A DNA stretch of 64,000 nucleotides from Pelomonas cellulosilytica (GTDB lineage: Bacteria; Pseudomonadota; Gammaproteobacteria; Burkholderiales; Burkholderiaceae_C). This document shows positions 38,098 through 38,988 of this stretch, piece by piece. Each line of letters starts with the position of its first letter. The first letter of the stretch is position 1. The stretch lies in NCBI RefSeq assembly GCF_021353265.1, contig NZ_JAJTWU010000003.1, positions 558,001-622,000 on the forward strand. The letters run 5' to 3'. The translations under genes and the position numbers were made by a program. Below the pieces are notes generated by a model. That model did not search any database, had not been told where the DNA came from, and was given only the letters and a program-made list of their open reading frames with translations.

Positions 38098-38988
38098 ATG
38101 CACATCCTGTTGATCGAGGACGACCTCGACCTTGGTCACGCGCTGCAGGCCGCCCTGCGCGCCGACGGTCATAGCAGCACCTGGCTGCGCCGCTGCGGCG
38201 ACGCGCCCGTGCAGCTGGACCCGGCCTCGCAGGACGCCGTGCTGCTGGACCAGACGCTGCCCGATGGCGATGGCCGTAGCCTGCTGAAACGCTGGCGCCG
38301 CCAGGGCAGCATGGTGCCGGTACTCGTCATCACCGCGCGAGTCGCGCTGGAGGATCGTCTTGCCGGCTTCGATGGCGGCGCCGACGACTACGTCGTCAAG
38401 CCCTTCGAGATGCCCGAGCTGATCGCGCGGCTGCGCGCGGTCCTGCGGCGATGCGCGCAGCAGGCCAGCGACGAATGGACGCTCGGCGACCTGACCATCG
38501 AACCGCGCCGCCAACGGGCGCTGCTCGATGGGGCCGAGCTGGCGCTGTCGCCGCGCGAGTACCAGCTGCTGCTGGAACTGGCCCGTGAGCGTGGCAGTGT
38601 GGTGCCCAAGCAGCAGCAGCTGGCGCAGCGCCTGGCGCCGCTGGGCGAGCCGCTGGAGTTCGGCACGCTTGAAGTGCACCTGGCCAACCTTCGCCGCAAG
38701 ATCGGCGCCGAGCGCATCGGCACGGCGCGGGCCAGCATGGCGCTGGGCGAGTCAATCATGCTGTTCGGCAAGCTGGGTGTGGCAGCGAACCGGTTGAAGG
38801 CCGACGATTCGCTGGGTCATGCGCAGCGCGAGACCTGCGTGCGTCCGATGGTCGGTGGCGGCCTGGCATGGCAGCACACACCGCGGATGTCGGCCGCCGT
38901 CGAGTACAACCGTTACGGCTCGCACACCAGCGAAGGCAGCCGCGTCACGCAGCAGAAGGCCGAGGTGGGCCTGGCGTTCAAGTTCTGA
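38098..38988 (+). CDS. Chimeric ORF: OmpR-type response regulator fused to an outer-membrane beta-barrel end
   Basis: This 296-residue frame has a full receiver domain (1-118; acidic pair Glu7/Asp8-Asp9 region, phosphoacceptor Asp51, Thr79, Lys101) and a winged helix that is complete up to VHLANLRRKIGAERIGT (about 193-209), where a normal protein would end a few residues later with a G-x-G-Y-R turn. Instead it continues into about 88 residues like the last strands of an OmpA/OmpW-like barrel: ESIMLFGKLGVAANRLKADD, GGGLAWQHTPRMSAAVEYN and a C-terminal LAFKF ending in Phe, the BAM signal. No signal peptide precedes the barrel part and no histidine kinase follows. It is best read as a deletion scar that joined two genes near base 38720. 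Whether the regulator half still works is unknown. Confidence 0.8.
   Translation: MHILLIEDDLDLGHALQAALRADGHSSTWLRRCGDAPVQLDPASQDAVLLDQTLPDGDGRSLLKRWRRQGSMVPVLVITARVALEDRLAGFDGGADDYVVKPFEMPELIARLRAVLRRCAQQASDEWTLGDLTIEPRRQRALLDGAELALSPREYQLLLELARERGSVVPKQQQLAQRLAPLGEPLEFGTLEVHLANLRRKIGAERIGTARASMALGESIMLFGKLGVAANRLKADDSLGHAQRETCVRPMVGGGLAWQHTPRMSAAVEYNRYGSHTSEGSRVTQQKAEVGLAFKF

Follow-up and report, generated by a model that had tools for sequence, protein, structure and literature searches.

The question raised by the open reading frame at 38098-38988 of the window, by which we mean the whole 64,000-nucleotide stretch of Pelomonas cellulosilytica DNA that was analysed, is how most of a response regulator came to be joined to the end of an outer-membrane barrel and whether what resulted is a working protein. 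The preliminary description took residues 1-207 to be an OmpR-type regulator and residues 208-296 the end of a barrel closing in Phe, fused in frame by a deletion. The frame is open over 296 codons and both assignments held, the second to within about 2 residues. The two parts and the join between them, given here relative to G012, a genome of the same genus which is taken to be Pelomonas sp. Root1237, are as follows.

38098..38724, forward strand: regulator part, residues 1-209, a receiver and a winged helix without its last 11 residues (Pfam, G012 alignment)

38722..38730, forward strand: deletion junction at the Thr209 and Ala210 codons, uncertain by about 2 codons, with 1771 bp of G012 absent (DNA alignment, codon reading)

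38725..38985, forward strand: barrel part, the last 87 residues of an OmpA-like outer-membrane barrel, which are G012 barrel residues 100-186, ending in Phe (G012 alignment, Pfam)

In Pfam, Response_reg covered residues 3-112 and Trans_reg_C residues 146-210, the latter match ending at position 70 of the 77 in the profile. The receiver residues of the OmpR family, D8, D9, D51 and K101, were invariant in a 15-row alignment headed by the fusion protein, and we take D8 and D9 to be the acidic pair, D51 the phospho-acceptor Asp and K101 the receiver Lys. The fusion departs just once from the columns conserved in at least 94% of the 75 regulator homologues among the matches listed. It lacks the C-terminal RG-x-GY hairpin that completes the winged helix, a motif present in all 75 of these homologues, and R210, G211, G213 and Y214 were invariant in 14 of 14 aligned regulators. 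Residues 1-209 correspond to residues 1-208 of the G012 regulator with a Gln inserted, which the alignment puts at residue 172; its codon is an additional in-frame CAG within a CAG run at 38611-38619, absent in 75 of the 75 homologues among the matches listed, and possibly came from slippage. The tail and the C-terminal half of the 186-aa G012 barrel share 66% identity, and the tail ends in LAFKF, with the aromatic C-terminal residue of a barrel. When the last 86 residues were compared with Pfam on their own, the matches to OmpA_membrane (E 0.0006, 20.1 bits against a cut-off of 21) and OMP_b-brl (E 0.0068, 17 bits against 28.7) were both below threshold; the first stops no more than 4 positions short of its profile's end, and the second runs right to the end.

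Support for a deletion as the origin of the frame came from G012, where the whole operon lies between the same neighbours as the fusion, in the order DUF808, a MaoC-like gene, the regulator (219 aa), a kinase (464 aa) carrying HisKA and HATPase_c, the barrel (186 aa), a flavodoxin-like gene and an antiporter gene. The flanking features in the window are these, and we presume the Flavodoxin_2 gene to be KefF and the Na_H_Exchanger gene to be KefC.

37094..37996, reverse strand: DUF808 gene, conserved left flank (Pfam, G012 comparison)

38034..38097, no strand: second local loss, the MaoC-like gene (151 aa in G012) gone between DUF808 and the regulator (G012 comparison)

39037..39693, forward strand: Flavodoxin_2 family gene, conserved right flank (Pfam, relatives)

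39591..41543, forward strand: Na_H_Exchanger and TrkA_N gene, conserved right flank, the true start probably internal to the frame (Pfam, relatives)

At the DNA level the window and G012 (L040) matched on both sides of one single gap, 38097-38730 corresponding to 9353-9985 and 38725-42041 to 11749-15009, and codon reading passes in the window from G012 regulator residue 208 directly to barrel residue 100. The missing segment is 1771 bp long (L040 9978-11748), in frame, and, within 2 codons, comprises the regulator's last 11 codons, the entire kinase and barrel codons 1-99. The signal peptide and the complete barrel are accordingly missing, and beside the fusion there is no kinase, which in G012 and in G001 lies 3' of the regulator. 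The absence of a kinase, a barrel N-terminus and a regulator C-terminus, and the deletion of the regulator's end, a kinase and most of a porin gene proposed to account for it, were thus borne out by an intact operon with collinear flanks. What had to be shifted was the position of the in-frame join, which had been put near base 38720 and lies slightly later, the last regulator codon being Thr209 (38722-38724) and the first barrel codon Ala210 (38725-38727). It can be placed only to about 2 codons because Ala210-Arg211 would also suit a regulator like that of G352, which reads RIGTARG at that place. As for repeats flanking the deletion, BLAST fitted a GCGCGG to both sides, but in the G012 regulator it is out of register by 2 nt; among the 20 of 45 repeat families displayed, the members of the nearest pair (9949-9965 and 11792-11808, 82%) are 1843 apart and not 1771.

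The deletion history of the frame is strongly supported. In the sequence of events that we propose, a deletion inside a regulator-kinase-barrel operon would have taken out about 1.77 kb, comprising the final 11 regulator codons, all of the histidine kinase and, from the barrel, its signal peptide and first half, and the remainders would have been joined in frame, leaving the present frame as a relic of that event. If translated, it would probably give a soluble, cytoplasmic hybrid protein, with a receiver competent for phosphorylation and poor DNA binding because the winged helix lacks its closing strand, and the 87-residue barrel tail would be a passenger. We consider it most likely that the frame is such a deletion-born chimera, a relic in a decaying two-component operon with the receiver intact, the wing truncated and the tail a passenger.

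The surroundings have changed as well. The distance between the start codons of DUF808 and the regulator is 101 bp in the window and 585 bp in G012, where the MaoC-like gene (L040 8813-9268) lies in between, as it does in G016. This gene is at the locus in 19 of 20 genus members and absent from the window, and it was not found to have moved elsewhere in the genome, the best match being 35% identical. On the far side of DUF808 the window carries a DUF6714 gene (36589-37089), next to a gene that we take to be ScpA-like; at this site G016 has a 165-aa frame without a Pfam match and the flanking genes meet directly in G012, and because its content differs among the three the site also turns over. 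A scan of 37950-39100 for promoters and terminators gave no site.

Few of the genomes examined carry the operon, and it has apparently broken more than once. KefF was found in 20 of 20 genus genomes examined; in 17 of these MaoC adjoins KefF with no operon within the 1.5-kb flanks, and the operon or its remains occupy the KefF site in the genome of the window (G000), G012 and G016. With the tail as query, 4 of 120 genomes matched at E<=1e-14 (G000, G001, G012 and G016), all among the 20 of the genus, and eleven more gave weak matches only (E 4.7e-5 to 0.0086). Five of 299 family genomes held barrel matches at E<=1e-44 (G000, G012, G177, G185 and G352) and in the remaining 76 of the 81 that matched the barrels were more distant (E 6e-21 or weaker); neither G001 nor G016 matched in this search. 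In these seven carriers tblastn placed regulator, kinase and barrel together in four (G012, G001, G352 and G177), and the operon is broken in three; the four complete operons belong to three genera (L040 9354-12012; L041; L101; L102). Paralogous regulator-kinase pairs at L043-L046 had no such barrel within the 14 kb fetched. The relic in G016 (L042 8634-9179) is broken at other points: it retains residues 1-89 of the regulator, 427-458 of the kinase and the end of the barrel, and its regulator piece reads on out of the barrel frame. In G185, which lies outside the genus and is taken to be Rhizobacter sp. Root1238, no such regulator was present in the 11-12.5 kb fetched, and the kinase lacks residues 1-110, its residues 111-464 lying in a 397-aa frame with foreign N-terminal codons (L048 4687-5880; also L100) beside genes that by eye we take to be for arsenic resistance. 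Over the longest shared stretch G012 and G016 were 87.3% identical, and the window was 84.6% and 84.1% identical to each, respectively; shorter shared stretches vary more, between 77 and 90%. Because the identity of G012 and G016 exceeds that of the window with each, the breaks in the window and in G016 were probably independent. The operon is apparently decaying, independently, in G016 and G185 also.

The lost parts were also sought in the rest of the genome. No orthologous kinase was found with 82 of 128 candidates scored, the best match being a 50% paralogue at C1, which sits beside its own 62% regulator paralogue. No other barrel of the tail's family reached E<=1e-6 among the 11 scored out of 26 candidates, and the tail alone gave nothing better than E 0.029 (12 of 12 candidates scored), so within these candidates relocation of the kinase or the barrel was not found. 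When residues 195-296 were compared with 5.8 billion proteins, five of 43 candidates reached E<=0.001, the fusion itself and four barrels of 186-190 aa; residues 1-207 gave 76 proteins at E<=1e-80 among the best 7998 candidates scored, the fusion itself and 75 regulators of 204-231 aa, of which the closest among the matches listed was 91% identical over residues 1-207. Among the matches listed in either search there was no second fusion. A conserved two-domain family of regulator and barrel, which would have spoken against the deletion, was not seen, no relative with this full-length architecture being present among the 4 tail matches and the 75 closest regulators listed. Viral and plasmid origins found no support either: 40 viral-contig stretches fit a pattern and none encodes a barrel relative, and there was no plasmid match to 38500-38988. 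Titles and the beginnings of abstracts held nothing on the fusion locus, which is no proof of its absence from print.

Whether the frame is dead was approached through its divergence, with a codon model written for this analysis and assumed trees, on which distant branches are saturated and the figures rough. For the regulator (208 codons) omega on the window branch was 0.094, that on the other branches 0.080 (2dL 0.14), and neutrality was rejected for residues 1-207 on that branch (2dL 13.3 and 10.4). For the barrel tail it was 0.592 on the window branch and 0.089 elsewhere (2dL 8.88) and neutrality was not rejected (0.38), and the KefF control gave 0.089 and 0.066 (2dL 0.87). Reruns of the tail with tighter branch-length limits or fewer sequences gave 0.39 against 0.153, a difference without significance (2dL 2.85), and 0.70 against 0.073 (2dL 8.68), and a further rerun gave 0.53 for the tail and 0.108 for the regulator on the window branch. 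When the regulator was split, the receiver (0.103) and the DNA-binding half (0.079) did not differ from background, and for the latter alone neutrality was not rejected (2dL 1.84). Likelihood profiles disfavoured a regulator omega of at least 0.3 (2dL at least 4.2; 5.8 against 0.39) and a tail omega of 0.09 or less (2dL at least 6.9). It looks, then, as if the tail is relaxed on the window branch (0.39-0.70) and the regulator half is not (0.09-0.11), but the contrast is marginal because giving both halves a shared omega of about 0.2 costs no more than 1.85 + 1.61 = 3.46 in 2dL. With G012 as the test branch omega was 0.040 for the regulator, nominally below that on the window branch, and 0.084 for the tail. 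In G016 the tail gave 0.082 with neutrality rejected and the regulator piece gave 0.216, different neither from background nor from neutrality, and for this reason the break in G016 looks young. At the protein level 2 residues of the regulator are private, the average being 2.3 for 37 homologues comparable in nearest-neighbour identity, and the tail has 19 in 86 against 2-11 in six other sequences, one of them of 59 residues only and P0003, which is 98% identical to G012, left out; the two counts are not on one scale, the nearest relative being 92% identical for the regulator and 70% for the tail, for which comparators are sparse. The absence of decay in the regulator half is the main result against calling the whole frame dead, and because of it the regulator was either broken only recently or is still used.

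The second of these alternatives leads to the reading that best competes with ours, namely that after the same deletion the fusion is still a working orphan regulator, phosphorylated by a paralogous kinase or acting without contact of the wing with DNA, the tail being neutral baggage. The constraint on the regulator half beside a relaxed tail, the conserved receiver pocket, the single departure from conserved columns and the presence of a paralogous kinase in the genome all speak for it. However, constraint from before the deletion counts towards the same branch, neutrality is not rejected for the half that would bind DNA, the contrast between the halves is marginal, the regulator omega is nominally lower still on the G012 branch, and the wing motif is gone. 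In AlphaFold2 models the regulator of G012 ends in a hairpin (strands 206-209 and 213-216; mean pLDDT 84), whereas the fusion (mean pLDDT 72) kept the receiver and most of the winged helix without the hairpin. We regard a working orphan as rather unlikely, and since it shares the deletion history it does not exclude the relic that we favour. A little more doubtful is the fuller form of the idea, in which a still-selected regulator that has lost kinase and wing, with an altered DNA-binding end and a drifting barrel tail, is switching to a kinase-independent or cross-talk life.

That the tail was recruited, a barrel hairpin replacing the wing or stabilising the protein to make an adaptive new one, is very improbable. 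The frame was kept, and barrel sequence, presumed to form beta strands in its old setting, lies where the wing strand was; but one third of random joins are in frame, the tail is the part that evolves fast and the protein searches with tail and regulator found no second copy among the matches listed. A barrel hairpin closing the wing was unsupported by AlphaFold2, which placed a helix at 216-230 and no strand in the tail, with pLDDT below 50 at 210-291 and 293-296; this model is weak evidence, since the alignment behind it had no homologous rows for the tail, barrel rows having been misaligned whether full-length or cut, and the other rows were cut before the wing. An assembly error that skipped 1.77 kb is the least credible explanation of all, because the divergence of the tail is what a real loss would lead one to expect and the window is free of N in an 803-kb contig (C23) of a 6.35-Mb genome listed as 100% complete, and furthermore the MaoC loss adjoins the junction, relatives have broken operons too and neither an orthologous kinase nor another barrel of the family was found elsewhere within the candidates scored.

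The relic of a decaying operon thus remains the preferred account, and the frame looks like a decaying by-product and not a new kind of protein. It offers a snapshot of a two-component operon coming apart, in which the intact ancestral form can be set beside copies broken in different ways, and it is a reminder that an annotated in-frame "regulator-porin" protein can be a by-product of deletion; should the regulator half be functional, the frame would show, as a natural experiment, which parts a response regulator can do without. Among known systems, the fusion shares with QseB/BasR-type regulators of the OmpR family the receiver with its acidic pocket, the phospho-acceptor Asp51, Lys101 and most of the winged helix, and over residues 1-207 its identity to intact 219-aa members reaches 91%, but it differs from them in the loss of the last 11 residues with RG-x-GY, the extra Gln172, the lack of an adjacent kinase and the 87 foreign residues. 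The tail resembles OmpA-like and OMP_b-brl barrels (PF01389, PF13505) in the C-terminal half that aligns with the G012 barrel and in the final Phe, and differs in having no signal peptide and no first half, in evolving faster and in scoring below both Pfam cut-offs. Deletion-born chimeric reading frames, or fusion pseudogenes, are a general class, which the present case resembles in that a single gap takes away the central part of an operon and brings its outer genes together; it differs in that the join happens to preserve the frame and unites a cytoplasmic regulator with a barrel meant for export.
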